This document shows, piece by piece, positions 12,712-40,039 of a stretch of DNA of 64,000 nucleotides; the first letter of the stretch is position 1, and the number at the start of each line of letters is the position of its first letter. The translations under genes and the position numbers were made by a program. Below the pieces are notes generated by a model. The model saw only the letters and a program-made list of their open reading frames with translations, had not been told where the DNA came from and did no database searches. The stretch is taken from contig DASWIS010000028.1 in assembly GCA_036397555.1 (NCBI GenBank), forward strand, positions 1 through 64,000, given 5' to 3'. This stretch comes from Candidatus Zixiibacteriota bacterium. GTDB taxonomy: Bacteria; Zixibacteria; MSB-5A5; WJJR01.

Positions 12712-13812
12712 TCATTCGCACGGGCGGCAATACGTTTCCCACTGACTCTCGTTGCGAAAGGCAACACCGATCACTCCGACCACATCGAACACTTCCGTCA
12801 CGCCGCTGCAATTGACGTCGGTCCGCGCCACAGGGCAGTCGGCATCCTGCGTGGCCGCGACATTGCGGAAGGCGACATCGACGGCACGGACGACATCGAG
12901 CACATTGACGATGCCGTCGCATTGCGGGTCGCCGAGGCAGTGACAATCGCAGATCATGCAGGGCCCGGTCTCGGCGCCCATGTTGACGCCATCCTGACCG
13001 GTGCCGCAGCAGGGTGAAGTTGAATCGATCGTGAAGTTGCCGATCGGCGAATTCCCATACATCGGATCGGCGGAAATCGAATTCGGCCCGCCCACCGCGC
13101 CTCCTGCGTAGTTGGCGCCATTCTGCCAGACACAATTGTAGTCCAGCTCCGCGTAAGACCCCGAAATTCCATATCCCTCGGAGTTCGTCACGATGTTGTT
13201 GCGCGCGATTGTCCCCAACATATGCGAGAAGAAGCCGTTCGCGTTGGCGTCGAATGTGTTGTTCAGAATCGTTGCCCCCCCGGAGTAGACGCCGATGCAG
13301 ACAGCCGAAACGTTGTTATAAAACACATTCCCGGCGATGAGCGGGGGGACCGCCGCGTGACAGTCGATGCTGACGCCGTTCTGATTCGTGTCGGAGCGGT
13401 CCCGGAAGATATTGCCGACGATTTGAACTGCTTGCGAGCCGTTGATATCTACTACATGGAAGTCAGACCCTCCTGCGATCGTAAACCCCGAGAGCAGCGC
13501 CGTGCCGCCGGTCGTTCCATTCAGATTGACGGTCGCTGCGGCCGCCACCGACGGTCGAATGATGGTCCCTGGCGCGCCATGGGAGCTGATGAGTTTGATG
13601 GCGCGCCCGAGGTAGTGGATGTTTTCGGTGTATGTCCCCGGAGCCACCAGCACCGTATCGCCCGACTGCGCGGCGCTCATGCCCGCCTGGATCGTGGCGG
13701 CCGAATCCGGGACATGGATGACCCTGGCCTCTGCCTTCGTCGATCCCAACGCAATCCCGAGCGTCGTTGTCACGACCAGCGCCAGCCGCTTCGATGTCAC
13801 CATGACATTCAT
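12712..13812 (-). CDS. Exported parallel beta-helix protein with C-terminal dockerin-like module
   Basis: A 366-residue secreted protein. A signal peptide at 1-29 ends in KAEA. It is followed by IHVPDSAATIQAGMSAAQSG and APGTYTENI, the typical opening of right-handed beta-helix (pectate-lyase-like/NosD-type) proteins. Repeating strand-turn units follow (VQIVGNIFRDRSD, LIAGNVFYNNVS, ATILNNTFDANA, IARNNIVTNSEG). The tail has two EF-hand-like repeats, GDPQCDGIVNVLD VVRAVDVAFRN and a second around TEVFDVVGVIGVAFRN, with paired Cys before, between and after (YCRPCE end). It is the last gene of the seven-gene array, 20 bases after the neighbour. Binding or catalytic function is unknown. Confidence 0.8.
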   Translation of the reverse strand: MNVMVTSKRLALVVTTTLGIALGSTKAEARVIHVPDSAATIQAGMSAAQSGDTVLVAPGTYTENIHYLGRAIKLISSHGAPGTIIRPSVAAAATVNLNGTTGGTALLSGFTIAGGSDFHVVDINGSQAVQIVGNIFRDRSDTNQNGVSIDCHAAVPPLIAGNVFYNNVSAVCIGVYSGGATILNNTFDANANGFFSHMLGTIARNNIVTNSEGYGISGSYAELDYNCVWQNGANYAGGAVGGPNSISADPMYGNSPIGNFTIDSTSPCCGTGQDGVNMGAETGPCMICDCHCLGDPQCDGIVNVLDVVRAVDVAFRNVAATQDADCPVARTDVNCSGVTEVFDVVGVIGVAFRNESQWETYCRPCE

Positions 13813-13832
13813 CGTCTGCCTCCAGCGGTCAA

Positions 13833-16800
13833 TTACAGAGCACAAGGTGCGCAAAACGCGGAAACAGGGTCGGCATTTCGAAACGCCACGTCGACGAATC
13901 GGACGACGTCGAATACATCCGTCGCGCCATTGCACGACACATCGGTGTCCTCGAACGGGCACTTCGGGCCGATGCTGGACGCGCCATTGCGAAACGCCAC
14001 ATCGACCGCCTTGACCACATCCAGCACGTCGACCACGCCGTTGACGACCGGGTCGCCGTGCGCGGGGCAGCCGCACGCGACATTGTGCTCCGCCCACTGC
14101 CAGGCCGCCTGCACGATGCGATGGAGTCCCGCAGCCGGCATCTGGCCCGGCGCCGGTCCGTAGGCGAAGTGCTGCAGCGTGTCGGAGACGAATCCGACGA
14201 TGTAGTATTGCGTTTCACCCGGATCCAATGTGAGGCCCTGATCCAGCGTGAGGACGGTGTAGATGTCCTTGGACGAGTCGGGGTGCATGCTGACGACCGA
14301 AACGCCCGCTACACCGGTGAGCTGGGAATACATGAAGCCGCTGCCGGGGCCGCCGCCGATCTGGTTTTCACGGTTATCGCGCACCGCACCGTGCAGCGGG
14401 ACCGATGCGAAAGAGAACTCCTGCCCGGATGCATCCCGTCCGGCCATATACGTCACGCCCGCAGAGTAACGGCGCGACGTCTGGAAATGGCTCGGGGGAT
14501 TCCATCCGGGCGCATCGGCGCCGAATTGATACAGCAGATTCGAATCCGGCCAATATGCTCCTTCGTTGTCGACGTTCATTTGATAGTCCACCGGCGGCGC
14601 TTCAGTGACATTAAAATCGATCCACAATCCCAGGACGATGTCGTCGATCGTCTGCGGCAGCATGCCGTCCTGATCGGTGCGATTGGTGACGACATACTCG
14701 GCGATGACGAAGTCGGCCGAATCGGGATGCTGGGGTGTGTACCAGTGCGCATCGATGCCCAGAGTGGCGTCCATCGTCATGAATCGCGCCTCGGCGACTG
14801 CATATCCCGCGCCGGTGCCGTACCGACTCGTGTCCAGGTCGAGCGGCGTGATGGCGGCAAAGCCGTGTTGGCCGGGGTCGCTCTGTTTGTTGCCGAATCG
14901 GTGGAAGACGAGCGTATCGGGCATCTGATCGCCGTGCGCGACCAGCAACGAGGCATCGCCGATCGCCCGTGACAAATCCGGCCAGCGTTGCAGGCCCCCG
15001 TCATCGTGGGGCGCGCCGAATCGGCCGCCGCTGGAGATTTGCAGGGTCAGCACACCGTTCCCCGCGTCCGCGGTTTTGATGAAGGCCTCCTCCGGACAAA
15101 ACACATAAGGTGTCACGGCAAACTCGATGGGGATTACGATCGGATTCGGCTGCGCGAACCCATTGTGGGCTATCTCTATCGTGCCGTCGTAGAATCCGGT
15201 CATCAACGCGATCGCATCCATTGTGACCGTCAGATCGATGTATTCGTCCGCGGTCGTAACGGAGAACGCCCCCGATGGCGCGATCGAGAGCCACGATGAT
15301 CCCTCCGTGATCGCAATCGTTCCGTTGAGCGTCGCCGATCCGGTGTTGGCGATGCGCAGTTGCGTTTCCTGAAACGCTCCGGCCGCAGCATGGAACTGGC
15401 ATTCCGGATCAACAGCGAGTTCGGGAAATATGGCCGACGCCACCAACGGACAGACGAATGGCGCGTCATCGCCGCCGGGAAGGTTCAGGTACATGACCGG
15501 GTTGAGCGTCCACCCCGATCCGTCTGCCCACGATGCGGCTTCAAAATCGAGGAGATACAGGATATCGATTCCCGCCTGCCCCGAGATGTCGCGGGCAATC
15601 GTGGCCATCGTCTCCGACGCGCAAAGCGAATCGGGATGGATCGACGTGCACTGCGGCGTCTTGGTATTGGTCAGGTTGACCGGCGGCGCCCATGTTCGGC
15701 CGCCGTCGGTCGAGCCAGTCGTATAGAGCTCGCCGTTGCAGACGCCGAACTTGGAATAGTCCGCCTGCTCCTCGGGCGTCTCGCCGCAGTTCTTCGTGAA
15801 GACAACATAGAGGAAGTCTTCCGTGGTCAGATCGATTCCCGAGCAATATGCGGCGCCGTCGCCGACTCCCAATGTGACTTTGTTGAGATTGAGATGTCCC
15901 GAATAGTTGGCGTCATTGTCGTAGTACCCGACCGCCGCTGTGCGAATGTCGCGGCGGAGATCGTTCCAATGTTTGATTGCGATGTCAGGGGACTGATTGG
16001 CGAATCGCTGCTCATCCCAGACGATGTGCAAAATGCCCGCGTGATCATACGCGATCGAAATGTGCGCCCACACTTGCGGACCGGGGGTGTCGTTATCGGT
16101 ATAGTCGGTGACATACTGACGGCTCGCATTGCCCAGTTCGGAACCGTCGCGCCAGCCAATTCCGGCCGTATACGACTCGCGGTAGACAAGATTAAACAGG
16201 TTATTCCAGCGGCCCTCGTAGTTTTGCGTGAATGCGACCCCGACTTTGTCGGTGCCGTCGGCGGCATCGATGACATACGAGAGCGCGCCGTTTGAGGAGT
16301 CGATCACGACAGGGACATACCAGTCCGGCTCGTTTTGTGCCTTGCGCCAATAGACGATGTCGCCCGTCGGCGAGGCGAAACCGGCGGCCGCCGGAATCGC
16401 CCCGGTCGAGATGACGTGGTAGACGTCGTTGGCCTCCGACTTTGCCGCGACCGCATCCTGCGCAATGGCGATATCGGGCCACAAATATTCGGTGAAGTAC
16501 CATGGCGACGAGATCGTCGGCAGCATCTCCGGAAAAATGATGTCGCTGCCGTTATAAGGCAGGAACAGATGCCAGATGGCGTAGTGCTGAATACCCGGAT
16601 CGGGATACTGGTGAAACGCCACGTGTGCCCGGCTGTCGCTGTCGACATCCAGACGCGCAAACCCGGCGCGCGAGAAATCGCCGAGCCCAATCTCCGTGCC
16701 GCCAAACTCCGGGAACAGGACACCGCCGCTCACGTCCCAGGCCGCGTAGTTGACGAACCGATCCAAGTCGGACGCTCCCCCCGGAATAATGTCCCAATTT

Positions 16801-17180
16801 ATCCATGTGAAGTGCACGAAGGCCGCCCCCGGATTGCGTCCGACCTGGTGGCCCTGCGAGTCGTTGGCCCATGAGTCGTAGCTCGTGTAGTCGATCAGGA
16901 TTCCAGGTGACAGAATCGTGTCGGGAGCCAGCAACGAATTGCCGGCGGTCATCCTCGCACGGTCGTCGACTTGCGTATGTGCGGGCAGCGGCTCGTGCGA
17001 AAGGTAATCACGGCCGACGATCACTCTCGGCTGAGTACGATCGTAAATGTTGACTGCGCCTTGCACGTTTACTGGGGGGAACGTCGTAAGCGCCATCACG
17101 CCGACCGCATAGACCGCACACGGCACGACCCATCGCGGCAGTTCGGACTTCGATTTTACTCTGGTTGGTCTCTCTTCCAT
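13833..17180 (-). CDS. Array paralogue 1: long secreted beta-propeller protein with dockerin-like C-terminus
   Basis: A 1,115-residue exported protein with an N-terminal hydrophobic signal segment at about 20-40. Residues about 90-560 form the propeller-like domain shared by the array, with the Asp-box STDGGRTWAPPVNLTNT and IAYDHAGILHIVWDEQRFAN. Residues about 590-700 form an Ig/BACON-like sandwich (SWLSIAPSGAFSV ... TGFYDGTIEIAHNG). Residues about 710-1040 are a second conserved domain of unknown fold (IGDASLLVAHGDQMPDTLV, WYTPQHPDSADFVIAEYV). The end is a double dockerin-like module (GVVDVLDVVKAVDVAFRNG and ATDVFDVVRFVDVAFRN). ATG 17180 follows AGGAGG. It is the most divergent paralogue and lies 14 bases after its upstream neighbour. 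Confidence 0.82.
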   Translation of the reverse strand: MEERPTRVKSKSELPRWVVPCAVYAVGVMALTTFPPVNVQGAVNIYDRTQPRVIVGRDYLSHEPLPAHTQVDDRARMTAGNSLLAPDTILSPGILIDYTSYDSWANDSQGHQVGRNPGAAFVHFTWINWDIIPGGASDLDRFVNYAAWDVSGGVLFPEFGGTEIGLGDFSRAGFARLDVDSDSRAHVAFHQYPDPGIQHYAIWHLFLPYNGSDIIFPEMLPTISSPWYFTEYLWPDIAIAQDAVAAKSEANDVYHVISTGAIPAAAGFASPTGDIVYWRKAQNEPDWYVPVVIDSSNGALSYVIDAADGTDKVGVAFTQNYEGRWNNLFNLVYRESYTAGIGWRDGSELGNASRQYVTDYTDNDTPGPQVWAHISIAYDHAGILHIVWDEQRFANQSPDIAIKHWNDLRRDIRTAAVGYYDNDANYSGHLNLNKVTLGVGDGAAYCSGIDLTTEDFLYVVFTKNCGETPEEQADYSKFGVCNGELYTTGSTDGGRTWAPPVNLTNTKTPQCTSIHPDSLCASETMATIARDISGQAGIDILYLLDFEAASWADGSGWTLNPVMYLNLPGGDDAPFVCPLVASAIFPELAVDPECQFHAAAGAFQETQLRIANTGSATLNGTIAITEGSSWLSIAPSGAFSVTTADEYIDLTVTMDAIALMTGFYDGTIEIAHNGFAQPNPIVIPIEFAVTPYVFCPEEAFIKTADAGNGVLTLQISSGGRFGAPHDDGGLQRWPDLSRAIGDASLLVAHGDQMPDTLVFHRFGNKQSDPGQHGFAAITPLDLDTSRYGTGAGYAVAEARFMTMDATLGIDAHWYTPQHPDSADFVIAEYVVTNRTDQDGMLPQTIDDIVLGLWIDFNVTEAPPVDYQMNVDNEGAYWPDSNLLYQFGADAPGWNPPSHFQTSRRYSAGVTYMAGRDASGQEFSFASVPLHGAVRDNRENQIGGGPGSGFMYSQLTGVAGVSVVSMHPDSSKDIYTVLTLDQGLTLDPGETQYYIVGFVSDTLQHFAYGPAPGQMPAAGLHRIVQAAWQWAEHNVACGCPAHGDPVVNGVVDVLDVVKAVDVAFRNGASSIGPKCPFEDTDVSCNGATDVFDVVRFVDVAFRNADPVSAFCAPCAL

Positions 17181-17194
17181 CTCGATTCCTCCTA

Positions 17195-20100
17195 CTAAGC
17201 GCACGGCTGGCAAAACGCCGTCGCCGGATCGGCGCTGCGAAACGCCACGTCGACAATCGCCACCACATCGAATACGTTCGTCGTCGCGTCGCAGTTTACG
17301 TCAGTGTCGGCGAACGGGCAGTATATGCTCTGCGAGGGTGACCCGTTTCGGAAGGCCACGTCTATGGCTTCTATCACGTCGAAGACATTGACCACGCCAT
17401 CGGGAGCAGGATCGCCGACGTTCGGGCAGACACACCCCAGATTGGAGTGGGCCCACTTCCACGCCTTCTGCACGACACGGTGCAGACCGGCGTCTTCCGT
17501 CTGACCGGGGGCCGGACCGTAACTGAAGTTCTGCAGCGTGTCGGAGACATAGGCGACGATGTAGTGCTGCGTCTCGCCGGGCGCCAATGTCAGCCCCTGG
17601 TCGAGGGTGTAGTGGGTGTATCTATCCGCATCGCAACCCGCAGGATCATAGAACAAGCCGGGAATGCCGGCCATGCGTCGATAGATGAGGCCGCTGTTTG
17701 TGCCGGTATATCCGTTACTCGGACCCGGCAGGTTCTCGCTGTTACTACGAACGCCGACACGTATCGGCACCGGATCTTGAAAGTGAAAAAACTGACCGAG
17801 CGCATCGCGTCCGGACATGTAGGTCACACCGGCCGAAAAACGCCCGGCCGAAGTGAAATAGTCCGGGGGACTGTAGCCGATTGAATCGAGTCCTCGCTGA
17901 TAGACGAGGTTGGAATCAGGCCAGAACCCGCTTCCATTATCGTTACCCCATTGCGAATGCACATGCTTCGCCGGGATGACATTGAAATCGATCCACAGTC
18001 CGGCCACGATGTTTTCAAGTGTTTGCGGGAGCATGCCCGCTTCATTCGTGCGGTTTCTCAGCACATACTTGGCGACGACAAAGTCGGCTGAATCGGCGTG
18101 TTGCGGCGCATACCAGGTTGCCGTGACCTCCAGCAGTGAATCGCGCGTATTGAAAATCGCCGTCGCCGAGGCGTAGCCCATGCCGGTCCCGTAAGCCGAT
18201 GTATCCATGCTCAACGGCGCGACCGGCAGAAAGCCGTACTGTCCCGGATCGTCCTCGTTATTGCCGAATTGATGGAAGACGACCGTGTCGGGCGATTGCT
18301 CGCCGTGGGCGATCACCAGCGAGGCATCGCCGATGCCATAGGACGAATCGGGCATGCGCAACAAACGTCCCTGCAGATCAGGCACGCCGAAGCGTCCGTT
18401 GTTGCCGACCTGCAGCCCCAGCACCCACGGACTGGAGCTGGCCGTCTTCAGGATCTTCGCCTCCGGACAGGAGTAGTCTTCGGTGACGAAGAACTCGATG
18501 GGATAGACTTGAGGGTCGGCGATCAGCGTATCGTCGTGTGTGATTTGGATCTCGCCGGCGTAATACCCGTTGGGCAGGGACGACGCATCCATCGTGACCT
18601 CGATCAGCAACGGCGGGTCGGCCGGTTGCAGGGCAAAAGGTCCGCCCGGCGCAACCGACAGCCACGACCCTCCCTGCATGACCATGACCGACCCGTTCAG
18701 CGGCGCATTGCCGCCATTGTCGATCTCCAGTGCGATGGTCAGCCCCCCACCCGACGGCGCATGGTATTCGCACTCTGCGGTTTGTTCGAGGAGGACATCG
18801 AGCGACGGGGCCAGCAACGGGCAGACGAATGGCGCGTCATTGCCGCCGGGCAGGTTGAGGTACTTGACCGGGTTGATCGTGGTTGCCCATTCACCGGGTA
18901 TGGACGGTCCCGCTTCCAGGTCGAAGAGGTAGAGAATGTCGATCCCCTCCTGGCCGGATATATCGCGCGCGATGCTCGCCATCACTTCGGAAGCGCACAC
19001 CGAGCCGGGATCAGAAGTGTGACAATCCGGCGTTTTCGTATTGCTCAGGTTGACTGGCTTCGACCATGTGGCGCCGCCGTCGTGCGAGCCGTTGATGTAC
19101 AACTCGCTGTTGCAGTAACCGTAGCGCGAGTAATCGGCGCGCTCAGCCGGTGATTCACCGCAGTTCTTGGTGAATAGCACATAGAGAAAATTTTCGTTGC
19201 TGGATCCGAACTCGGTGCAGAACGCCGAGCCGTCGCCGATTCCCAGCGTGATCTTGGTGAGATTCAGATCGCCGGGCGGATTGTGGCCGTTCTGGTAGTA
19301 CCCGCGGGCGACCCGGTCCATTGTCTGCCGTGAATCGTCCCAGTGGCGGATCGCCACGTCGTGTGCGATGCCATCCGCGTATCGCTGCTCATCCCACACC
19401 AGGTGCAGGACCGCATCGTGATCGTAGGCGATGGAGATGTGCGCCCACGCCTGCGGGCCGGGCGTCGTGTTGTCCGTGTAATTTGTCACGTAGTGTCGGT
19501 TGGCGTTACCCAGCTCGGTCCCGTTGACCCATCCCATCCCTCCCGTTTGCGACTCGCGATAGACGATGTTGGCCAGCCCGTTCCATTGCGCTTCATAGTT
19601 CTGCGTGAATGCAACCGCGACCTTGCCGGTGCCGTCGGCGGCATCGATGACATAGGAGAGCGCGCTGGTGAAGGAGTCGAGGACAACGGGTAGATTCCAG
19701 TTACCGCCAACCGCCTGATCCCACCGCCAGTACTCGATATCTCCGGATGACACGGGAACAGTCCCGTATTCCGCAACGGGCATGGCAATAATGTGATAGA
19801 TGTCCGTCGAGTTATACTTCGTTTGACCTTGATTCTGCGTAATCGCGACGTCGACTCCGAAGTCATCAGTCGGCCAATGCAAGTAGTCCGGGAGTTGCTC
19901 GGGGGTGAACGAGCCGCTTCCCTCGACAGTCTGATACAGATGCCAAGCCGAGTAATTCTGAATGCCCGGATCTGAGCGCTGGTGCAACACGACATGACAC
20001 TTGTTGTCGCTGTCGACATCGAGACGGGGAAATCCGGCTTGGGCGAAATCACCGAGTCCGATTGAAGCCCCATCGAAGCCGGGAACCAAATCGCCCGCCG

Positions 20101-20512
20101 CCACGTCCCATGCCGCGTAGTTCACAAAGCGGTCTATCCCAAATTGTGCATACCGATCGTAGTGAGTCCATGTCATGTGCACGAAGTCTTCCCCCGGATT
20201 GCGCGCGATCTGACGGCCTTGTGAGTGGTAATGCCAGAGGTCGTAGAAGGTGTTGGCGATGTGCATCCCGGGCGACTCGAGCGTGTCCATGTCGAGCAGG
20301 CCGTTAGTCGACCTGGGGCGGGTGCGGTCGTTCACCGCCGGATAATCGACATCGGCGACGCGTTCGCCGCTGTCGCTGCGCGACGGCTGCGAGCGCCCGC
20401 CTGCGGCAGCATCCGTCGGGTACGTCAGTGCGGACGCCAGCGTGAGGGTCGCCGCCAGAGTCATCAGGCGGACGCGTCGGACCCTCCGGAAATCGCTACG
20501 AGCGATGATCAT
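17195..20512 (-). CDS. Array paralogue 2: long secreted beta-propeller protein with dockerin-like C-terminus
   Basis: A 1,105-residue long-form member. A signal peptide (hydrophobic about 17-32, DAAAG cleavage region) is followed by the propeller domain with HYHSQGRQIARNPGEDFVHM and the Asp-box SHDGGATWSKPVNLSNT. The sandwich domain contains SWLSVAPGGPFAL and LPNGYYAGEIQITHDD. The second large domain contains IGDASLVIAHGEQSPDTVV. The dockerin tail fits the calcium-loop pattern: D-x-A-x-DG-x-V-N-x-x-D in GDPAPDGVVNVFD, and D-x-N-x-D in DVNCDATTNVFD. The chain ends FCQPCA. The open frame runs 86 codons upstream into its neighbour, but ATG 20512 gives a proper signal peptide and leaves 17 bases between genes. 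Confidence 0.82.
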   Translation of the reverse strand: MIIARSDFRRVRRVRLMTLAATLTLASALTYPTDAAAGGRSQPSRSDSGERVADVDYPAVNDRTRPRSTNGLLDMDTLESPGMHIANTFYDLWHYHSQGRQIARNPGEDFVHMTWTHYDRYAQFGIDRFVNYAAWDVAAGDLVPGFDGASIGLGDFAQAGFPRLDVDSDNKCHVVLHQRSDPGIQNYSAWHLYQTVEGSGSFTPEQLPDYLHWPTDDFGVDVAITQNQGQTKYNSTDIYHIIAMPVAEYGTVPVSSGDIEYWRWDQAVGGNWNLPVVLDSFTSALSYVIDAADGTGKVAVAFTQNYEAQWNGLANIVYRESQTGGMGWVNGTELGNANRHYVTNYTDNTTPGPQAWAHISIAYDHDAVLHLVWDEQRYADGIAHDVAIRHWDDSRQTMDRVARGYYQNGHNPPGDLNLTKITLGIGDGSAFCTEFGSSNENFLYVLFTKNCGESPAERADYSRYGYCNSELYINGSHDGGATWSKPVNLSNTKTPDCHTSDPGSVCASEVMASIARDISGQEGIDILYLFDLEAGPSIPGEWATTINPVKYLNLPGGNDAPFVCPLLAPSLDVLLEQTAECEYHAPSGGGLTIALEIDNGGNAPLNGSVMVMQGGSWLSVAPGGPFALQPADPPLLIEVTMDASSLPNGYYAGEIQITHDDTLIADPQVYPIEFFVTEDYSCPEAKILKTASSSPWVLGLQVGNNGRFGVPDLQGRLLRMPDSSYGIGDASLVIAHGEQSPDTVVFHQFGNNEDDPGQYGFLPVAPLSMDTSAYGTGMGYASATAIFNTRDSLLEVTATWYAPQHADSADFVVAKYVLRNRTNEAGMLPQTLENIVAGLWIDFNVIPAKHVHSQWGNDNGSGFWPDSNLVYQRGLDSIGYSPPDYFTSAGRFSAGVTYMSGRDALGQFFHFQDPVPIRVGVRSNSENLPGPSNGYTGTNSGLIYRRMAGIPGLFYDPAGCDADRYTHYTLDQGLTLAPGETQHYIVAYVSDTLQNFSYGPAPGQTEDAGLHRVVQKAWKWAHSNLGCVCPNVGDPAPDGVVNVFDVIEAIDVAFRNGSPSQSIYCPFADTDVNCDATTNVFDVVAIVDVAFRSADPATAFCQPCA

Positions 20513-20529
20513 CTTTGCATCCCTTCGTT

Positions 20530-22488: not shown

Positions 22489-22536
22489 GACTCCTCCCTG
22501 AATCCGTCGGCAAAGGATTGATAGCGCGCGCCGGGA

Positions 22537-22667
22537 GGCTCAGCAGAAGCTTCGCCCTCCCAAAGCGTGCGAGCGGGAGGGCGAGGCTTCCGCTCGTCCT
22601 GAGCACAGCGAAGGGCCGAGCCTGTATTTCGATTAAGGTTGCCCAATGGAGCTGATGATCCATCGCC
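22537..22667. repeat. Duplicated intergenic block, copy A (matches 29397-29527)
   Basis: From GGCTCAGCAGAAGCTTCGCC to the gene end this block is almost identical to 29397-29527, at a constant offset of 6,860 bases. Similarity continues into the dockerin coding ends of the adjacent genes. It contains a GC-rich hairpin GCCCTCCC (22554-22561)/GGGAGGGC (22575-22582), which could act as a processing or termination stem between array genes. Confidence 0.85.
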
Positions 22668-25600
22668 TCACCCGCACGCATCGCAAAACACCACCTCCGG
22701 ATCGGCGCTGCGAAACGCCACATCCACAAACGCAACCACATCGAAGACATTCGTCATCCCGTCGCAGGTGACATCGGTGTCCTCGTACGGGCACACCGGA
22801 CTCTGCGGTGGCAGTGCGGCGCGAAAGGCGACATCCACCGATTTGACCACGTCGAAAATGTTGACCAGGCCGTCCAACACCGGGTCGCCGAGATTGGGGC
22901 AGTTGCAGCCGAGATTGGAATACGCCCATGCCCAGGCCTTCTGCACCGCCGCATGCAAACCGGCGTCATCCGGCTCGCCGGGCGCGGGGCTGTATGCGAA
23001 GTGCTGCAACGTGTCGGAGACCAGCGCGATGACATAGCGCGATGAGGCGCCGGGCGACAATGTCAGATTCTGGTCGAGCGTCAGGTATGTGTAGCGATCC
23101 TGCGACGAGCCGGGATCGATCAGTGCAAAGGTGATTCCCGGCGTCCCGACGATCCGGCTGTACATCAGTCCGCTCGACGGCCCGCCGCCGGTCTGGTTTT
23201 CCGTGTTCGCGCGAATGCCGCCATGCAACGGCGCGGCTTCGAAGAAAAACGGCGTCCCGGCCGCATCGCGTCCCGCGATGTAGGTGACGCCGCCGGAGAA
23301 ACGCTGTGTCGACTGGAAAAATGATCCCGCGTGTCCGGCGGTATCGAAGCCGTACTGGTAAATCAGATTCGAGTCGCCCCAGTATTCGCCTTGATTGTCC
23401 GCACCGCGTTGACTGCCGACTGCGCCGCCGTCAAGGATATCGAAGTCGATCCACAATGCCGCAACGATCTGATCGAGCGTCTGGAGAAGAGATCCCGGCT
23501 CGTCGCTGCGATTGGTGATTCTGATGTCCGCCGCGATGAAGTCGGCCGAGTCGGGATGCTGCGGCGCGCACCATTTGAGCTCGATCTTAAGCAGCGAGTC
23601 GCGCGTCGTCATCTCGACGCGCGCGCTGGCGTATCCCTGACCGGTGCCGTATGCCGACGTGTCGACTTCCAGATCGGCTAAGGGACGGAACCCAAGCTGC
23701 CCCGGATCGGACATGTTGCCGCCGAACCGGTGATAGACGACCGTATCGGGCGACTGGCTCCCGTGCGCGATCAACAGCGAGGCATCGCCGATTGAGCTGG
23801 AACCGCCCGGAAAACGAAACAGCCCGCCCTGCACATCGGGCGCCCCGAAACGGCCGGTGCTGGCGACTTGGAGCGAAAGCACACCGGGGCTGGCTTTCGC
23901 GCTGCCCAGGAGCAACTCTTCAGGGCAGTAAAACTCGTCGACGACAAAAAAGTTGATCGGCAGGATGATCGGACTGGCGACCGAATCATCATCGTGGACA
24001 ATCTGAACCTCGCCGACGTAGAGTCCTTCGGTCAATGCACCGGCGTCGAGCGTGAGAGTGAAAGCTTCGGCCGGATCGATATCGGCAATCTCAAATGGCC
24101 CCGACGGCGTCACCGAAAGCCATGATGCGCCCTGTGTGACCATGATCGAACCGTTCAAGAGCGCATTCCCGACATTGTCGATCGACAGGACCACCTCGGT
24201 GAATGCGCCCGGCGGCGCGTGATATTCGCACAACGGCTCCTCGGGCAACAGCGCCGCGATTGCCGGGGCAAAGTGCGGGCACACGTGCGGCGCATCGTCG
24301 CCGCCGGGGAGATTCAGGTAGATAACTTGGTTCATGGTCCAGCCGGAGCCGTCCGCCCAGGTCGCCGCCTCGCGGTCGACGAGGTAGAGGATGTCGATCC
24401 CCTCCTGTCCGGAGATGTCGCGCGCGATGGTCGCCATGACATCCGAGGCACAGAGCGAGTCGGGGTTTGCCGAGCGGCAATTCGGCGTCTTGGTGTTGGT
24501 CAGATTGACCGGTTTGGACCACGATGCGCCGCTGTTGTACGAGCCGGTGATGTACAGCTCGCCGTTGCAGATTCCCTGTGTCGACGTGTCCGCCCGCTCC
24601 TCCGAAGTCTCGCCGCAGTTCTTTGTGTAGGTCACATACAGGAAGTTCTCGTTGGTCAACCCGACATTCGAGCAGAACGCCGACCCATCGCCGATACCCA
24701 GTGTGATCTTGTTGAGATTGAGGTGGCCGGCGTAGTTTGCGTCATTCTCATAGTAGCCCAGCGCGACCTGATCGATGGTCTGACGGTTGTCGTCCCAATG
24801 CCGGATGGCGATGTCATCGGATATGTTCGACAGCCGCTGCTCATCCCAGACGATGTGAAGGACCGCGTCGTGATCGTAGGCGATGGAGATGTGCCCCCAT
24901 ACCTGTGGGCCGGGCGTCGTGTTGTCGGTGTAGTTGGTGACATATTCGCGATTGTTGTTGCCCAGTTCGGTGCCGTTAAACCACCCGAGTCCGCCGCTGC
25001 TTGATTCGCGGTAGACGAGGTTGAACAAATTGTTCCACTGCGCTTCGTAGTTTTGCGTGAATGCGACCGCGACCTTGTCGGTGCCGTCGGCCGCGTCGAT
25101 CACATAGGACAGAGCCCCGTTGCTGGAATCGATGATGATCGGATCAGGCCAGCCGGGATTTGCCTGATCCCATCGCCAATAAACCAAGTCCCCGCTCGGA
25201 GAGCCGAACTGACCGCAAGGGCATATCGGCATGGCGATTACGTGGAAGATGTCGCTCGTATTATCCTTGGGCAGGCCATTATTTTGCGTGATCGCAATAT
25301 CGGGCCACAACACTTCGGTGATGTCGGGTGACAACAGTGAGTCGGGGAGCTTCTCTGGCAACAAGACGTCCCCTCCCTCGATCGGTAAGAACACGTGCCA
25401 CGCCGAGTAGTTCTCGATCCCGGGATCCGGATACTGGTGAAACACCGTGTGAGCGAGATTATCGCTGTCGATATCCAGACGTCCGAATCCGGCCCTGGCG
25501 AAATCCCCCAGCCCAATCGATACGCCGTCAAATCCGGGATACAATTCAAACCCAGGTGAGCCCAGTACATCCCACGAGGCGTAGTTCACAAAACGATCGC

Positions 25601-26030
25601 GGTCCCCGACGTCCTGCGGAATCTCATCCCAGTGCGTCCACACCATGTGCACAAAGTCCTCACCCGGATTGCGGGCGATCTGATGGCCCTGCGAGTCGTT
25701 GGCCTGGCTGTCATAAGACGTGTTCGCGATATGCGCGCCGGGCAACGGCGGCAGCGCATCGCTCTGCAGCCCTGCTGATGTCGCGGCCGTCGGACGGTCA
25801 TCGACCACCGATTTATTGAGCGATGCATCCCGGGCGAGATAGTCGCCGCCGACCAGTACGCGCTTCGTATCCCGCCGCTGGATGTCGGCGGAAGGTTTAG
25901 TTTTGACGGCGGCCAGTGCGCTGTTATGAGCCGAATCACACACGCCGAAGGCACAGGCCAGCGCAATCAGTGTGACGGCCTTGATCCGGCGATGCGATCG
26001 ACGCCGATGGATAAACGTGTCCCTGTTCAT
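22668..26030 (-). CDS. Array paralogue 4: long secreted beta-propeller protein with dockerin-like C-terminus
   Basis: A 1,120-residue long form. The signal region is about 15-42. The propeller has SYDSQANDSQGHQIARNPGE, IAYDHDAVLHIVWDEQRLSN and ITGSYNSGASWSKPVNLT, in which the Asp-box aspartate is lost. The sandwich domain has SWLSVTPSGPFEI and LYVGEVQIVHDD, and the second domain has IGDASLLIAHGSQSPDTVV and QHPDSADFIAADIRI. The tail has GLVNIFDVVKSVDVAFRAA and MTNVFDVVAFVDVAFRSAD and ends FCDACG. The start ATG is preceded by AGGAG at 5 bases and is only 12 bases after the upstream gene's stop, so the two are likely translationally coupled. Confidence 0.82.
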   Translation of the reverse strand: MNRDTFIHRRRSHRRIKAVTLIALACAFGVCDSAHNSALAAVKTKPSADIQRRDTKRVLVGGDYLARDASLNKSVVDDRPTAATSAGLQSDALPPLPGAHIANTSYDSQANDSQGHQIARNPGEDFVHMVWTHWDEIPQDVGDRDRFVNYASWDVLGSPGFELYPGFDGVSIGLGDFARAGFGRLDIDSDNLAHTVFHQYPDPGIENYSAWHVFLPIEGGDVLLPEKLPDSLLSPDITEVLWPDIAITQNNGLPKDNTSDIFHVIAMPICPCGQFGSPSGDLVYWRWDQANPGWPDPIIIDSSNGALSYVIDAADGTDKVAVAFTQNYEAQWNNLFNLVYRESSSGGLGWFNGTELGNNNREYVTNYTDNTTPGPQVWGHISIAYDHDAVLHIVWDEQRLSNISDDIAIRHWDDNRQTIDQVALGYYENDANYAGHLNLNKITLGIGDGSAFCSNVGLTNENFLYVTYTKNCGETSEERADTSTQGICNGELYITGSYNSGASWSKPVNLTNTKTPNCRSANPDSLCASDVMATIARDISGQEGIDILYLVDREAATWADGSGWTMNQVIYLNLPGGDDAPHVCPHFAPAIAALLPEEPLCEYHAPPGAFTEVVLSIDNVGNALLNGSIMVTQGASWLSVTPSGPFEIADIDPAEAFTLTLDAGALTEGLYVGEVQIVHDDDSVASPIILPINFFVVDEFYCPEELLLGSAKASPGVLSLQVASTGRFGAPDVQGGLFRFPGGSSSIGDASLLIAHGSQSPDTVVYHRFGGNMSDPGQLGFRPLADLEVDTSAYGTGQGYASARVEMTTRDSLLKIELKWCAPQHPDSADFIAADIRITNRSDEPGSLLQTLDQIVAALWIDFDILDGGAVGSQRGADNQGEYWGDSNLIYQYGFDTAGHAGSFFQSTQRFSGGVTYIAGRDAAGTPFFFEAAPLHGGIRANTENQTGGGPSSGLMYSRIVGTPGITFALIDPGSSQDRYTYLTLDQNLTLSPGASSRYVIALVSDTLQHFAYSPAPGEPDDAGLHAAVQKAWAWAYSNLGCNCPNLGDPVLDGLVNIFDVVKSVDVAFRAALPPQSPVCPYEDTDVTCDGMTNVFDVVAFVDVAFRSADPEVVFCDACG

Positions 26031-26042
26031 ACAATCTCCTGA

Positions 26043-29000
26043 TCAAATGCATGGATTACAAAACGCAGTGGCAGCGTCGGCGCTGCGAAACGCCACATCC
26101 ACAAACGCCACCACGTCAAACACATTAGTCGTCCCGTCACACGTCACATCCGTGTCGGCAAACGGACAGCGCACACTCTGGTTCGGCGGGCCGCTGCGAA
26201 ACGCCACATCGACCGCCGCGACGACGTCGAAGACGTTGACCAGGCCGTCCGAGACCGGGTCGCCATGCGTGGGGCAGTGACAGCCCAGATGTTCGTTTCC
26301 CCATCGCCATGCCTTCTGCAAGCTCTGGTGCAGACTGGTGATCGCGCCTTCCTGCCCCGACGGGACATAGTCCGGATGCGACAGCGTGTCCGACACAAAG
26401 CCGATGACATAGTTCTGCGACGCCCCCGGCGCCAGCGTCAGATCGTGATCGAGTTGGAAGTAGGTGAACATGTCTTCCGACGAGTCGGCCACAACCCAGT
26501 TGGGGTCGATGACCACGCCCGGACCGCCGGTCAGCGTGGAATAGAGGGCGCCGCTGGACGGTCCGCCGAAGGGGGTCTTGTTCACGGTGTTGAGCCCGAC
26601 CCCCGCATGAATCCCCGCCGGGCCGCTGAAGCTGAAGCTCGTGCCGTTCGCGTCGCGCCCTTTCATGTATGTGATGCCGCCTGAGAACTTGCGCGATGTA
26701 GCGAAACCGGAATGTCCCACCGTGTCGAAGCCGTACTGATAGACGAAATTCGAATCGACCAGCGCGTCGCTGCCTGAGTTGTCCGCGTCGTGCTGGACAT
26801 TCTGCTTGTTGCTCTCGACCACGTCCAAATCGTTCCACAGTCCGACCAGAACGTCGCTGAGCGCCTGATTGAATTGCGGATGGCCGCCCGGCAGATCGAC
26901 GGTGCGATTGCGCACCACATATTCGGCAATGACGAAGTCGGCCGAATCGGGATGTTGCGGCGCGTACCACGTGGTTGTGATCTCGATGAGCGAATCGCGC
27001 GTATGGAACAGCGCCGTGGCACTGGCGAAGCCCGCGCCGGTGCCATAGGCCGACGTATCCATCGACAACGGCAGAATCGGAATGAAGCCGAACTGTCCGG
27101 GGTCGGTGAAGTTGTCGCCGAAACGGTGAAACGCCACCGTGTCGGTCGACTGTGTGCCGTGCGCGATCACCAGCGAGGCATCGCCGATGCTGTACGACGA
27201 ATCCTTCAGCCGCAGCAGCCGTCCCGGCAAATCCCCCGCGCCGAAGCGTCCGTTGTTGGCGACCGACAGTCCGAGAACCCACGGATTGGTCTTTGCGGTC
27301 TTCAGCACCATCGCCTGGGGACAGAAGAAGTCGTCGGTGACGAAAAAGTCGATCGGGATGACCAACGGATCGGCGATCAGCGTGTCATTGTGTGTGATCT
27401 GAATCTCACCGGCGTAGTAACCGTTGGGGAGCGACGACGCATCCATGGTTACGTCGACGCTCAATGTCGGATCGCTCGCCCCGAGATTGTATGCGCCGCT
27501 CGGCACGGTCGAGAGCCACGCGCCGCCCTGCGTGACGATGATGCTGCCGCTCAGCGGAGCAGTGCCGCCGTTTTCGATTCCCAAGGGCGCGATGACCTGC
27601 ATGCCCGACATCGTGTGGAATTCGCATTCGGGGTCCTGCTCAAACGTGAGCTCAAGCGACGGGGCAAACAGCGGGCAGACATACGCCGCGTTGTCACCGC
27701 CGGGGAGATTCAGATACATCACCGGATTGAGCGTCCAGCCGCCGCCGTCGGCCCAGGTAGCCGCTTCGCGGTCGACGAGGTAGAGGATGTCGATCCCCTC
27801 CTGACCGGAGATGTCGCGCGCAATCGTCGCCATGACATCGGAGGCGCATAGCGAATCGGGATTGGCGCTGCGGCACCCGGGGGTCTTGGTGTTGGTCAGA
27901 TTGATGGGTTTCGACCACGTCTGCCCGTCGCTGGCCGATCCGGTGATGTAGAGCTCGCCGTTGCAGAAGCCGAAATCGGAGACGTCGGCCGCTTCCTCCG
28001 CTGTCTCGCCGCAGTTCTTGGTGTAGGTAACATAGAGGAAGTTTTCGTTCGTTATGCCGTAGTCGGAGCAGAAGGCCGACCCGTCGCCGACCCCGAGCGT
28101 GATCTTGTTGAGATTCAGGTGTCCGGGGTAGTTGAAGAAGTTCTCATAGTACCCCGTTTCGACTTCATCAATTGTTCGGCGCACATCGTCCCAGTGACGG
28201 ATCGCTGCCTGGCTCTCGTCATCGGCGTATCGCTGCTCATCCCAGACAAGGTGCAGCACCGCGGCATGGTCGTAGGCGATGGAGATGTGCGCCCACGCCT
28301 GCGGACCGGGGGTGAGATTATCGGTGTAATTGGTGATGTACTCGCGATTGGCATCGCCCAATTCCGCACCATTGACCCAACCGAGTCCGCCGGTTGTGCT
28401 TTCGCGGTAGACAATGTTCTGGAGGTTATTCCACTGCGACTCGTAGTTTTGCGTGAATGCAACGGCTACACGGTCGGTCCCGTCCAGCGCATCGATGACG
28501 TAGGATAATGGGCCATTCGTGGAGTCGATGAGGACGGGCTGACTCCATCCGGGGTTGTTGTTGTCGAATCGCCAATAGGCGATTTCGTCGAATACGCCGC
28601 AGAACTGGAAGCAGGATGCCACTGACGCGATCGCGTGTACGACGTCGGTCGAGACATCCTTCGCGGCGCCGTGATTCTGGGTGATTGCGATGTCCGGCCA
28701 AAGCGTCTCGGTGACTTCCGGGTTGTTCGGGATTGAAGGCAGCTGCTCGAGGAGGATGACATCCCCGCCCTCGAGGGGGAGGAAAACGTGCCACGCCGAA
28801 TAATTCGCGATCCCCGGATCCGGGTACTGATGGAATACCGTGTGGGCCAGGTTATCGCTGTCGATGTCCATGCGGACAAAGCCCGCGCGCGCAAAGTCGC
28901 CGAGCCCGATCGACACACCGTCAAATCCGGGATACAATTCAAACCCGGGTGGACCAAGCACATTCCACGAGGCGTAGTTCACGAAGCGATCGCGGTCCCC

Positions 29001-29378
29001 GATGCTTTCGGGAATCACATCCCAGTGAGTCCACACCATGTGCACAAAGTCCTCGCCCGGATTGCGGGCGATCTGATGGCCCTGCGAGTCGTTGTGCTGG
29101 CTGTCCCACGCCGTTTGGGCGATCCATTCCCCCGGTGAAGTCGGCGGAGTGACGATCAAAAGCGGACTGGTCGTCGCCCCGCGCGGCCGGTCGTTGACGA
29201 CCGGGCGGTCGCTCGCGTCGCGCACGATGTAATCACCGCCGATGATGCGTCGGGGGCGGTCCTGATTGGCAGCGAACGCACTGGCAGCGTTACCAACCAG
29301 CAACACACTGCTGACGATTATCGCGAAGCTCTGCCGCATTGTGCGGCCGGTTCGTGTACACCGCTCACTCCCTGACAT
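26043..29378 (-). CDS. Array paralogue 5: long secreted beta-propeller protein with dockerin-like C-terminus
   Basis: A 1,111-residue long form. ATG 29378 follows AAGGAGG. The signal peptide (QSFAIIVSSVLLVGNAASAF) ends in AFAA. The propeller contains the conserved NDSQGHQIARNPGEDFVHMV and ITGSASDGQTWSKPINLTNT with an intact Asp-box. The sandwich has AWLSTVPSGAYNL and LPNGYYAGEIQITHND, nearly identical to paralogue 2. The second domain has QHPDSADFVIAEYVV. The dockerin module has GLVNVFDVVAAVDVAFRSG and TTNVFDVVAFVDVAFRSAD and ends FCNPCI. Alternating close matches to different neighbours along its length suggest recombination within the array. Confidence 0.82.
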   Translation of the reverse strand: MSGSERCTRTGRTMRQSFAIIVSSVLLVGNAASAFAANQDRPRRIIGGDYIVRDASDRPVVNDRPRGATTSPLLIVTPPTSPGEWIAQTAWDSQHNDSQGHQIARNPGEDFVHMVWTHWDVIPESIGDRDRFVNYASWNVLGPPGFELYPGFDGVSIGLGDFARAGFVRMDIDSDNLAHTVFHQYPDPGIANYSAWHVFLPLEGGDVILLEQLPSIPNNPEVTETLWPDIAITQNHGAAKDVSTDVVHAIASVASCFQFCGVFDEIAYWRFDNNNPGWSQPVLIDSTNGPLSYVIDALDGTDRVAVAFTQNYESQWNNLQNIVYRESTTGGLGWVNGAELGDANREYITNYTDNLTPGPQAWAHISIAYDHAAVLHLVWDEQRYADDESQAAIRHWDDVRRTIDEVETGYYENFFNYPGHLNLNKITLGVGDGSAFCSDYGITNENFLYVTYTKNCGETAEEAADVSDFGFCNGELYITGSASDGQTWSKPINLTNTKTPGCRSANPDSLCASDVMATIARDISGQEGIDILYLVDREAATWADGGGWTLNPVMYLNLPGGDNAAYVCPLFAPSLELTFEQDPECEFHTMSGMQVIAPLGIENGGTAPLSGSIIVTQGGAWLSTVPSGAYNLGASDPTLSVDVTMDASSLPNGYYAGEIQITHNDTLIADPLVIPIDFFVTDDFFCPQAMVLKTAKTNPWVLGLSVANNGRFGAGDLPGRLLRLKDSSYSIGDASLVIAHGTQSTDTVAFHRFGDNFTDPGQFGFIPILPLSMDTSAYGTGAGFASATALFHTRDSLIEITTTWYAPQHPDSADFVIAEYVVRNRTVDLPGGHPQFNQALSDVLVGLWNDLDVVESNKQNVQHDADNSGSDALVDSNFVYQYGFDTVGHSGFATSRKFSGGITYMKGRDANGTSFSFSGPAGIHAGVGLNTVNKTPFGGPSSGALYSTLTGGPGVVIDPNWVVADSSEDMFTYFQLDHDLTLAPGASQNYVIGFVSDTLSHPDYVPSGQEGAITSLHQSLQKAWRWGNEHLGCHCPTHGDPVSDGLVNVFDVVAAVDVAFRSGPPNQSVRCPFADTDVTCDGTTNVFDVVAFVDVAFRSADAATAFCNPCI

Positions 29379-29396
29379 GTTTCCTCCTTAAGAACA

Positions 29397-29527
29397 GGCT
29401 CAGCAGAAGCTTCGCCCTCCCAAAGCGTGCGAGCGGGAGGGCGAGGCTTCCGCTCGTCCTGAGCACAGCGAAGGGCCGAGCCGGTATTTCGATTAAGGTT
29501 GCCCAATGGAGCTGATGATCCATCGCC
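29397..29527. repeat. Duplicated intergenic block, copy B (matches 22537-22667)
   Basis: This is the second copy of the block described at 22537, with the same internal hairpin GCCCTCCC/GGGAGGGC. The two blocks sit between different pairs of array genes, each downstream of a gene start and upstream of a dockerin end. A unit spanning the intergenic piece and a dockerin 3' end has therefore been copied. Confidence 0.85.
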
Positions 29528-31474
29528 TCACCCGCACGCATCGCAAAATACAACCTCCGGATTGGCGGCCCGAAACGCCACATCCACAAACGCAACCACA
29601 TCGAAGACATTCGTCGTCCCGTCGCAGGTGACATCCGTATCGGCAAATGGACAGCGCACACTCTGGTTCGGCGCGCCGCTGCGAAACGCCACGTCGACCG
29701 CCGCCACGACGTCGAAGACATTGACCAGACCGTCTGAGACCGGGTCGCCATGGGTGGGGCAGTCGCAGACGTAGGGGCAGATGTGCACGGCATCATCACC
29801 GCCGGGAATGTTCAGATACATCACCGGATTGAGCGTCCAGCCGGAGCCGTCGGCCCAAGTGCCCGCTTCGCGGTCGACGAGGTAGAGGATGTCGATTCCC
29901 TCCTGGCCGGAGATGTCCCGCGCGATCGTCGCCATCACCTCCGAGGCGCACTCCGACCCCGGCACGTCACCTTCGCAATTGGGCGTTTTGGTATTGGTCA
30001 GATTGAACGGCACCGACCAGTTCAGTCCGCCATCGGGAGAGCCGGTGATATACAATTCCCCGTTGCAGAAGCCGTAGTCGGACACGTCCGCCTGTTCTTC
30101 AGGCGTCTCACCGCAGTTCTTCGTGTAGGTGACATAGAGAAAGTTCTCGTTGGTCGTGCCATAGTCGGAGCAGAGGGCCGAGCCATCGCCGACCCCGAGC
30201 GTGATCTTGTTGAGATTCAGGTGCCCGGAGTAGTTGTAGAGATTGGGATAATACCCCAGCGCCACCTGATCGATGGTTTGTCGTGCGTCGTCCCAGTGAC
30301 GGATGGCGATGTCGGGCGACAGTTCCGCAACCCGCTGCTCATCCCAGACGATATGAAGGGTAGCATCGTGATCGTAGGCGATGGAGATGTGCCCCCACGC
30401 CTGCGGGCCGGGCGTCGTGTTGTCGGTGTAATTGGTGACGTACTGCCGTGTGGCATTTCCCAGTTCCGTACCGTCCACCCACCCCACGCCGCCGGTTTGC
30501 GATTCGCGATAGACGACGTTCTGAAGGTTGTTCCACTGCGCTTCGTAGTTCTGCGTGAAGGCGACCGCGACCTTGTCGGTCCCGTCGGCGGCGTCGATCA
30601 CGTAGGAGAGAGCGCCGTTACTGGAATCGATAACGACGGGGGGGGTCCAGTTACCGCCAACGTCATAATCCCAGCGCCAGTACAGAATGTCACTGCTGGG
30701 GCTGCAAAATCCGCCGCCAGTAACTATGCAGCCCATGCCGATGACATGCAACACATCGGTGGTGTTGTCTTTGGCAGCGCCGTGATTCTGAGTTACCGCG
30801 ATGTCCGGCCATAGTATCTCGACAATGTCAGGGTTACCGGGATAAAGCGGCAACTGCTCGGGCGACAGAATGAAGTCACCTTCGACCGGGAGGAAGACGT
30901 GCCACGCCGAGTAGTTCTCGATCCCAGGATCCGGATACTGGTGAAAGACCGTGTGAGCCAGATTATCGCTGTCGATATCGAGACGCACGAATCCGGCCAA
31001 TGCGAAATCGCCCAATCCCATCGAAACGCCATCGAGACCCGGATACAACGTGCTGGTTATCGCATTCCAGGCCGCGTACTTGACGGTGCGGTAACGATCA
31101 TCCGGGGCGGTTGGTATCTGATCCCAGTGCAGCCACACCATGTGCACGAAATCCTCGCCCGGATTGCGCGCGATCTGATGGCCCTGCGAGTCGTTGGCTT
31201 GGCTGTCGTACGAAGTAGTCGCGATGTGCACGCCCGGCGACGTGATTGACGTGGCATCGACGAGCGCATTCGACAACTGCGCGCGCAATCGGTCATCCAC
31301 GGCGGCCTGATCGGTCGGCTGCCCGCGGACAATCTCGTCGCGGTGCAGCACCGGCGGCCAGGTGCGCGAGGTGACATCGCCGGCGCTCGCGTCGGCAATG
31401 CCCAGGGATATGATTACTGTCGCGGCCGTCGACACGGCGGCCCGGCCGGGGAAAACCCGCATCGATTTGGGCAT
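29528..31474 (-). CDS. Array paralogue 6: short secreted beta-propeller protein with dockerin-like C-terminus, first gene of the array
   Basis: A 648-residue short form. The signal peptide is about 1-32 (AATVIISLGIADASAGD). The propeller is closely related to paralogue 3, with ITGSPDGGLNWSVPFNLTNT and NLYNYSGHLNLNKITLGVG. After GGDDAVHICPY it enters the dockerin module directly (GLVNVFDVVAAVDVAFRSG, TTNVFDVVAFVDVAFRAAN, end FCDACG). ATG 31474 has GGGAGGTGG in front. As the most upstream gene of the co-directional array it should sit just after the promoter, in the repeat-rich region beyond 31475. Confidence 0.82.
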   Translation of the reverse strand: MPKSMRVFPGRAAVSTAATVIISLGIADASAGDVTSRTWPPVLHRDEIVRGQPTDQAAVDDRLRAQLSNALVDATSITSPGVHIATTSYDSQANDSQGHQIARNPGEDFVHMVWLHWDQIPTAPDDRYRTVKYAAWNAITSTLYPGLDGVSMGLGDFALAGFVRLDIDSDNLAHTVFHQYPDPGIENYSAWHVFLPVEGDFILSPEQLPLYPGNPDIVEILWPDIAVTQNHGAAKDNTTDVLHVIGMGCIVTGGGFCSPSSDILYWRWDYDVGGNWTPPVVIDSSNGALSYVIDAADGTDKVAVAFTQNYEAQWNNLQNVVYRESQTGGVGWVDGTELGNATRQYVTNYTDNTTPGPQAWGHISIAYDHDATLHIVWDEQRVAELSPDIAIRHWDDARQTIDQVALGYYPNLYNYSGHLNLNKITLGVGDGSALCSDYGTTNENFLYVTYTKNCGETPEEQADVSDYGFCNGELYITGSPDGGLNWSVPFNLTNTKTPNCEGDVPGSECASEVMATIARDISGQEGIDILYLVDREAGTWADGSGWTLNPVMYLNIPGGDDAVHICPYVCDCPTHGDPVSDGLVNVFDVVAAVDVAFRSGAPNQSVRCPFADTDVTCDGTTNVFDVVAFVDVAFRAANPEVVFCDACG

Positions 31475-39521: not shown

Positions 39522-39713
39522 CTATCGTCTTCTGAGGTTCCGAATCCGGCCCTTCCAGTCGACGGACAGGGTACATCCGCCGGAGCACGTCTTCCACGAA
39601 ATCGCCCCTTCCGGGACGTTGACTTGGAGACTAGCTAAGACGAGTGATACGCGGACGGCCAAAGACACAAGAGCGCCGAATCCGGCAAACCTGCTGCCTC
39701 CATCAACGGTCAT
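39522..39713 (-). CDS. Small ORF upstream of the reverse transcriptase, unknown
   Basis: A 63-codon ATG frame, 73 bases before the RT start and on the same strand. It predicts a hydrophobic N-terminal half (FAGFGALVSLAVRVSLVLAS) and a basic end with two Cys (SWKTCSGGCTLSVDWKGR ... LRRR). Its 3' two-thirds is one copy of a 120-bp direct repeat. The single difference between the copies is synonymous in this frame (GCT/GCC). Its ATG overlaps the stop of the longer open frame at 39710-40039. No ribosome site is convincing. It may be a real peptide, or an accidental frame inside an RNA gene that works with the RT. Confidence 0.35.
   Translation of the reverse strand: MTVDGGSRFAGFGALVSLAVRVSLVLASLQVNVPEGAISWKTCSGGCTLSVDWKGRIRNLRRR
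39524..39643. repeat. 120-bp direct repeat upstream of the RT gene, copy 1
   Basis: The copy begins ATCGTCTTCTGAGGTTCCGA and ends CTAGCTAAGACGA. It matches 39880-39999 at a constant offset of 356 bases over 120 bases, with one substitution (A at 39633 against G at 39989). Flanking sequence on both sides is unrelated, so the boundaries are sharp. Confidence 0.93.
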
Positions 39714-40039
39714 GGTCCCTCCATCCCGTGTGTGGTACGGTTTTTGTGGTCGGCGTTTGGACTAATCTCCAAACTTTCGTCCACCCCGGCGGCCCCGTGC
39801 TCAATCAATGCTGTTAGCGTTATCTGGCACTCTGCAATGAGCTGGACGCCGCTCTCTGGTTCGCCTGCCGGGTACTCGCATCGTCTTCTGAGGTTCCGAA
39901 TCCGGCCCTTCCAGTCGACGGACAGGGTACATCCGCCGGAGCACGTCTTCCACGAAATCGCCCCTTCCGGGACGTTGACTTGGAGACTGGCTAAGACGAC
40001 TTCCCACAGCGTTACCGTATGAGCCGTACGCCATGTTCG
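39710..40039 (-). other. Long open frame without a normal start, containing repeat copy 2
   Basis: On the minus strand this frame is open for about 109 codons after a TGA at 40042-40040 and ends in a TGA overlapping the next ATG. It shares the peptide of the small ORF across the repeat (PEGAISWKTCSGGC). It then continues as CEYPAGEPESGVQLIAECQ and TALIEHGAAGVDESLEIS. No ATG, GTG or TTG lies in its first 70 codons. A different 80-codon ATG frame (40043-39801) overlaps it. The repeat substitution would turn a Gln codon of that frame into TAG in copy 1. I cannot decide which, if any, is translated. The remaining 40043-40158 holds nothing recognisable. Confidence 0.3.
39880..39999. repeat. 120-bp direct repeat upstream of the RT gene, copy 2
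   Basis: This is the partner of 39524-39643 and differs only at 39989 (G for A). The 236 bases between the copies are unique in the window. Together with the RT this gives the order copy 2, spacer, copy 1, RT on the minus strand. Confidence 0.93.

Follow-up and report, generated by a model that had tools for sequence, protein, structure and literature searches.

About 58 exported proteins of an uncultured bacterium, Candidatus Zixiibacteriota (assembly GCA_036397555.1), carry the same C-terminal module, a predicted dockerin stapled by disulphide bonds, and our analysis suggests that it is probably a genome-wide docking tag, which would plug into cohesin-fold sockets anchored by the type IX secretion system (T9SS). 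We analysed a window of 64,000 nucleotides (contig DASWIS010000028.1, positions 1 to 64,000), in which seven genes lie head to tail on the minus strand (12712-31474), six of them for putative sialidase-like propeller proteins (g1-g6) and one for a beta-helix protein (g7), and the product of each ends in this tail. The initial annotation of the window had taken these genes as the system itself, whereas they provide only seven of the ~58 carriers.

The tail is widely spread over the exported proteome. When the tail of g4 (20533-20769), also the input for fold prediction, was used as a single query, it gave 75 matches in its own 2.63-Mb genome, and after refinement there were 59 full-length tails in 58 proteins, nearly all of which start with a signal-peptide-like stretch. 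These carriers span 38 Pfam families and are mostly unrelated proteins (peptidases, adhesin-like repeats, propellers). They include FG-GAP (6), PKD (6), TSP3 (5), subtilases (4), SBBP propellers (3), and M14 (2), as well as thermolysin, trypsin, lysyl oxidase, plastocyanin, and others, and no glycoside hydrolase or carbohydrate-binding module (CBM) is present among the 25 commonest of the 38 families. The hypothesis of the array as a self-contained system was rejected on this genome-wide distribution and on the position of the propeller homologues in genomes of the same family, which are mostly on separate contigs; the tight array is particular to this genome. A scan of GTDB contigs for the tail retrieved two loci only.

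The tail is predicted to be a derived, disulphide-stapled, type I-like dockerin, whose first loop is short of one calcium ligand. First, the same profile finds, in other genomes of the class, ordinary C-terminal dockerins that pass the Pfam cut-off, and the stapled tails match these class-level dockerins with hhalign at 99.2%; tails over the cut-off of the type I dockerin family (PF00404) occur in the same-family genome G005, in the same-order genomes G007 and G008, and at the level of the class. Second, the tail profile has only three matches among PDB sequences at E<=1, and all are dockerins. Third, structure prediction, a check proposed in the initial annotation, gave a dockerin fold: in the AlphaFold2 model the g4 tail has the duplicated loop-helix (F-hand) arrangement, loop-helix-loop-helix (predicted local distance difference test, pLDDT, 79; predicted template modelling score, pTM, 0.72; helices 20-31, 57-69, and 73-76), and dockerins fill the first 24 places among its PDB fold matches, the best having an E of 0.046, with TM, taken by target length, reaching 0.75. 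The annotation had also described two EF-hand-like loops per tail. The Cys-flanked double loop-helix is indeed present on all seven array proteins, but the first loop does not fit the D-x-N pattern: in this genome and in G002 position 2 is a proline, position 3 is mostly V/A/Q where N/D would be usual, which makes it a degenerate calcium loop, and position 4 is usually a cysteine, while calcium-ligand positions 1, 5, 9, and 12 are retained. The second loop keeps most ligands and its cysteine at position 4 is invariant. In G003 and G005, of the same family and a different genus, N3 is mostly retained and four cysteines are typical. An extra pair, C5/C12, is complete in 42 tails, absent from 17, and never reduced to a single cysteine (p=4e-15), a pattern that argues strongly, if indirectly, for a disulphide bond; within the array, the pair is missing from the tails of all six propeller proteins and present in that of g7.

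The genome also encodes candidate sockets. Cohesins (PF00963) are found above the cut-off at five loci, canonical dockerins adjoining cohesins are also present, and cohesins occur in 9/9 genomes of the order. The initial annotation had named as refuting results a predicted structure lacking EF-hand-like loops and a module found mainly in genomes devoid of cohesin-like domains; given the predicted dockerin fold and the cohesins in all nine genomes of the order, neither occurred. Two proteins, encoded on contig C25 in this genome, combine these elements. S2 (cohesin-Ig-cohesin-dockerin-CTD, 822-910 amino acids, where Ig is an immunoglobulin-like domain and CTD the T9SS C-terminal sorting domain) is present in a conserved locus in 9/9 genomes of the order, and S1 (ESK-Ig-cohesin-dockerin-CTD, 980-1035 amino acids) in 8/9, the ninth being a case of a short contig; ESK is the name given here to a domain of ~185 amino acids. 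Their CTDs suggest that S1 and S2 are surface-anchored scaffoldin-like proteins. SprA, a T9SS component, is present here and in 57/58 genomes searched, and ~19 proteins of this genome have a recognisable T9SS CTD. The extracellular, dockerin-assembled complex that had been proposed is thus retained as regards the predicted fold and the presence of cohesins, except that the likely receptors, T9SS-anchored cohesin and ESK proteins, are on contig C25 and not in the window; we found no feature supporting the proposed surface layer. Elsewhere in the genome, at C2:40044-40786 (L046) and C5:6840-7595 (L091), two large, differing contig-end proteins are almost the same in their cohesin-dockerin C-terminal part, where a repeat probably interrupted assembly.

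ESK is probably a divergent cohesin, because a domain of genome G023 matches both ESK (E 1e-8; hhalign 97%) and the cohesin model (E 2.6e-6; hhalign 75%), unrelated control profiles giving <=0.5%, and because in S1 ESK stands where S2, the colinear paralogue of S1 (hhalign 100%), has its first cohesin. The ESK domain itself has no match over the PF00963 cut-off. The cohesin model used contained only PF00963-confirmed domains, with ESK kept out; a first, iterated model drew in ESK domains and was discarded as possible drift. ESK has 18 copies in this genome and 8-23 per genome of the same family, placed directly before a tail or on proteins with a terminal T9SS CTD, and one protein of G002 has three consecutive ESK-tail units. 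Beyond the family there are 9-12 weaker matches in the two other genomes of the order and 1-2 in four others of the class, and in a search of 132 genomes of the phylum ESK reached E<=1e-10 only in the order and in G050. The G050 protein (C1:3017257-3018324, L200 and L214; 427 amino acids) has two ESK domains and an IPTL-CTERM-like membrane-sorting tail (IPTLNEWGMLIMGLLLLAVGTATLIRR); it ends with neither dockerin nor T9SS CTD, and its genome is devoid of stapled tails. Between S1 and S2 lies a protein of 256-265 amino acids with an ESK domain and half a tail, i.e. one loop-helix, in this genome (C25:7479-8246, L088) and in G003 (C56:5463-6257, L308), so that two genera have kept a half-dockerin. 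Three small ESK-tail proteins of this genome (C26:35748-36632, L081; C7:593-1486, L072; C8:107054-108055, L061) have in common an unusual tail (VFDVVKISQVVNQ, its second half reading DQTDLDKM) in which the VDVAFR motif is missing and which is possibly a second tag specificity limited to ESK proteins.

A more ambitious hypothesis, which we hold only tentatively, is that the stapled dockerin and ESK, as a divergent cohesin, evolved in this order as a docking pair and became the general route of surface attachment of the cell, with disulphides partly replacing calcium. Lacking a T9SS signal, tagged proteins might then be exported as passengers of ESK-CTD carriers to which they are bound in the periplasm, and the tag code, which reads V-F in one genus and V-Q in another, would drift with the receptor in all copies of a genome. 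It is unlikely that the receptor consists of the classical cohesins of S1 and S2 alone, ESK being an unrelated or non-binding neighbour of the tails. This would be compatible with the direct ESK-cohesin profile comparison, which reaches 73% in hhalign and covers the first strands only, with the lack of cohesin matches for ESK in the PDB, and with G050, which has ESK and no tail match at E<=1e-5. Yet the domain of G023 links ESK to the model of confirmed cohesins far above the controls, ESK takes a cohesin slot in S1, and the numbers of ESK track the stapled-tail clade, which is a single clade.

The position of the tail raises the question of whether it could instead be a C-terminal sorting signal, read by T9SS or another secretion machine and perhaps cleaved, its uniformity being imposed by the secretion apparatus. 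In favour of this hypothesis, 57/59 tails end at most 20 amino acids from the stop codon of proteins with signal peptides, T9SS is present, and no other way across the outer membrane is known for the carriers. We nonetheless regard it as quite improbable. The genome already has its ~19 ordinary T9SS CTDs, to which the tail is unrelated (hhalign 0.4%), and the tail does not match Por_Secre_tail, FlgD_ig, or CHU_C-like C-terminal domains. Some tails are internal or N-terminal, as expected for a docking module, and in the G002 protein they alternate with ESK three times. Finally, the fold predicted for the tail belongs to a known docking module.

The docking hypothesis is further favoured by the co-variation of tails within lineages. 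We compared reciprocal best protein pairs between genera, labelled g1, g3, and g4 (labels of genera, not of array genes). Between genera g1/g3 and g4, the tails of such pairs are 0.40-0.46 identical, compared with 0.59-0.61 for tails within genomes, and the identity of orthologous tails is below that of genome-mates in 37/38 pairs; in one pair the N-terminal part is 71% identical and the tail 37%. Within a single genus (G003-G005), orthologous tails are 0.80 identical. The two half-repeats follow the same trend, since they are 0.69 identical within one genome and the same half is 0.47 identical across genera (between G000, which is this genome, and G003), and position 11 of the loop is F in this genome and mostly Q in G002. 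The resemblance of tails to their genome-mates, with both half-repeats in step, is as expected with a shared receptor, and the contrast is conservative because the foreign tails retrieved are those most like the tails of this genome. Early replacement of all tails in each genus would leave a similar picture. Four-fold synonymous sites, which agree among tails at 0.446 vs 0.363 expected from genome-wide codon usage, speak mostly against recent gene conversion as the source of the uniformity; most copies are therefore old and their amino-acid uniformity looks selected. Within the array the agreement is higher (0.529), synonymous divergence (dS) between g1 and g2 is lower in the tail than in the propeller, and some local gene conversion is likely. 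It is very improbable that the tail acts as a structural cap or in tail-tail self-association while cohesins serve other, canonical dockerins inside S1/S2 and similar proteins: cysteine enrichment does suggest a role in stability and canonical dockerins do adjoin cohesins in the same genome, but outward helix and loop positions are kept uniform by selection over ~58 proteins whose linkers vary, and a private cap does not need a change common to all copies of a lineage.

We thus propose that a docking system could operate as follows: 1) the stapled dockerin would be the common C-terminal tag of the ~58 exported proteins; 2) the tags would most likely plug into the cohesin-fold sockets of scaffoldin-like proteins, namely S1, S2, and the smaller ESK-CTD and ESK-tail proteins; 3) these scaffoldin-like proteins would be exported and anchored by T9SS, and the carriers would also cross the outer membrane; and 4) the assembled product would be a proteolytic and adhesive multi-protein surface coat, akin to a cellulosome without the cellulolytic emphasis. 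The symmetrical halves of the tail might permit binding in either orientation, by analogy with type I dockerins, whose halves are able to bind either way round (PMC4728124). A number of observations weigh against this proposal. The window tails have no match to PF00404 at E<=1, so the comparison with this family suggested in the initial annotation left them below the Pfam cut-off, and their first loop misses a usual calcium ligand. The matches of the predicted fold all have E >=0.046, none being under 1e-3. There are ~60 tags for ~25 recognised sockets, many of which are on the tagged proteins themselves, and the tag carriers lack a T9SS signal that would account for their passage across the outer membrane. 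Four genomes, which represent few events, and pairs that are not independent underlie the co-variation, and it is weak between this genome and G002 (0.55 vs 0.58, 11/15 pairs).

Related principles of assembly have been described in other organisms. The nearest described system is that of Candidatus Stygibacter (Cloacimonadota), in which a cellulosome-like complex was inferred from metagenome-assembled genomes (PMC8542988). Both have signal-peptide proteins with C-terminal dockerins, including peptidases, and a scaffoldin with cohesins that a T9SS CTD would attach to the surface (PMC8542988). Candidatus Stygibacter has a few enzymes and one scaffoldin of 3,755 amino acids with CBMs (PMC8542988), whereas here there are ~58 carriers (mainly repeats, propellers, and peptidases), the small S1 and S2 with one or two classical cohesins, the divergent cohesin-like ESK domain, and the disulphide-stapled tag. 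The clostridial cellulosome also has a two-fold symmetric dockerin on many proteins and surface-anchored cohesin scaffoldins, but we see no cellulolytic emphasis here, the anchoring would be by T9SS and not by S-layer homology (SLH) domains or sortase, the first loop is degenerate, there are cysteine pairs, and recognition positions 10-11 are V-F rather than S-T. Anaerobic methanotrophic (ANME) archaea encode non-cellulosomal cohesin-dockerin proteins (PMC9012536), with, as here, many extracellular dockerin proteins and scaffoldin-like proteins outside cellulose degradation (PMC9012536); they differ in domain of life, cargo, and anchor, and the stapled tag and the link with T9SS are not in their description. 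The sorting domain of T9SS (Por_Secre_tail, PF18962) is likewise one C-terminal tag on many unrelated exported proteins, but it is unrelated in sequence and fold, both classes of tag are present in this genome, and the dockerin tail is sometimes internal. The docking principle is thus already known. As far as we have searched, the novelty concerns a stapled tag whose first loop is degenerate, the ESK domain together with the position that it takes in the conserved locus of T9SS scaffoldins, and a drift of dozens of tags that follows the lineage and affects both halves in step; we found no description of the stapled tag, ESK, or the tag drift in the open-licence literature.

The seven array genes are, as initially annotated, on the same strand, with single stops, signal-peptide-like N-termini, and, in most, an AGGAGG-type ribosome site. 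The gaps were said to be mostly of 12-20 bases, which holds for four of the six: in transcription order from g1 to g7 they are 149, 12, 179, 17, 14, and 20 bp, dividing the array into g1, g2-g3, and g4-g7. A promoter scan of the array gave counts at chance level, and the promoter/terminator scan was not used. The first gene, g1 (29528-31474; 648 amino acids), encodes a signal peptide, the putative propeller, and the tail (29531-29767), and g4 (20530-22488; 652 amino acids) has the same short form. The others have a middle part between propeller and tail, Ig-like in g2 (26043-29378; 1111 amino acids; tail 26046-26282) and g3 (22668-26030; 1120 amino acids; tail 22671-22907), and also present in g5 (17195-20512; 1105 amino acids, starting with MIIARSDF; tail 17198-17434) and g6 (13833-17180; 1115 amino acids, starting with MEERPT; tail 13836-14075), with a weak choice-of-anchor D match in g6. 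The propeller parts of g1-g6 are 53-76% identical in amino acids with a ratio of nonsynonymous to synonymous substitutions (dN/dS) of ~0.2, indicative of purifying selection, and these genes are thus old, constrained paralogues. Their identity as propellers is weakly suggested by a single Asp-box stretch, which matches nine PDB sequences, sialidases without exception, at E<=1 (best 2.2e-3), and AlphaFold2 on g4 with six window paralogues gave no usable propeller model (pLDDT 30). The beta-helix assignment of g7 (12712-13812; 366 amino acids; tail 12715-12951) is upheld by a match to NosD (PF05048) above the cut-off. Outside the array, the window has an eighth carrier, on the minus strand (48133-50430), a zinc carboxypeptidase M14 with an InhA-like MAM domain and a tail at 48136-48375.

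Two other loci of the window, both on the minus strand, are noted in addition. A reverse transcriptase (RVT_1) of 415 amino acids (38201-39448), whose closest PADLOC models are RT, UG17, and UG4, is preceded just upstream by a 120-nt direct repeat (39524-39643 and 39880-39999, 99% identical, with one A/G difference); no Rfam intron was found at this locus, and the ensemble could be a retroelement of diversity-generating or defence type. At 61647-63215, an N6/N4 DNA methylase is joined to an Mrr-like restriction endonuclease domain, possibly making a single-chain restriction-modification enzyme.

If our proposal is correct, then a whole order of uncultured bacteria displays much of its exported proteome through cohesin-dockerin docking, which would then not be a specialism of cellulose degradation. 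It would also provide a natural experiment, in which each genome has ~50 tags for one receptor that they share, so that the recognition residues become readable by lineage. A disulphide-stapled dockerin may rely less on calcium, which would be of use in protein assembly. For the biology of type IX secretion, the system would raise the question of the route by which proteins without the signal reach a scaffold that is itself anchored by T9SS.

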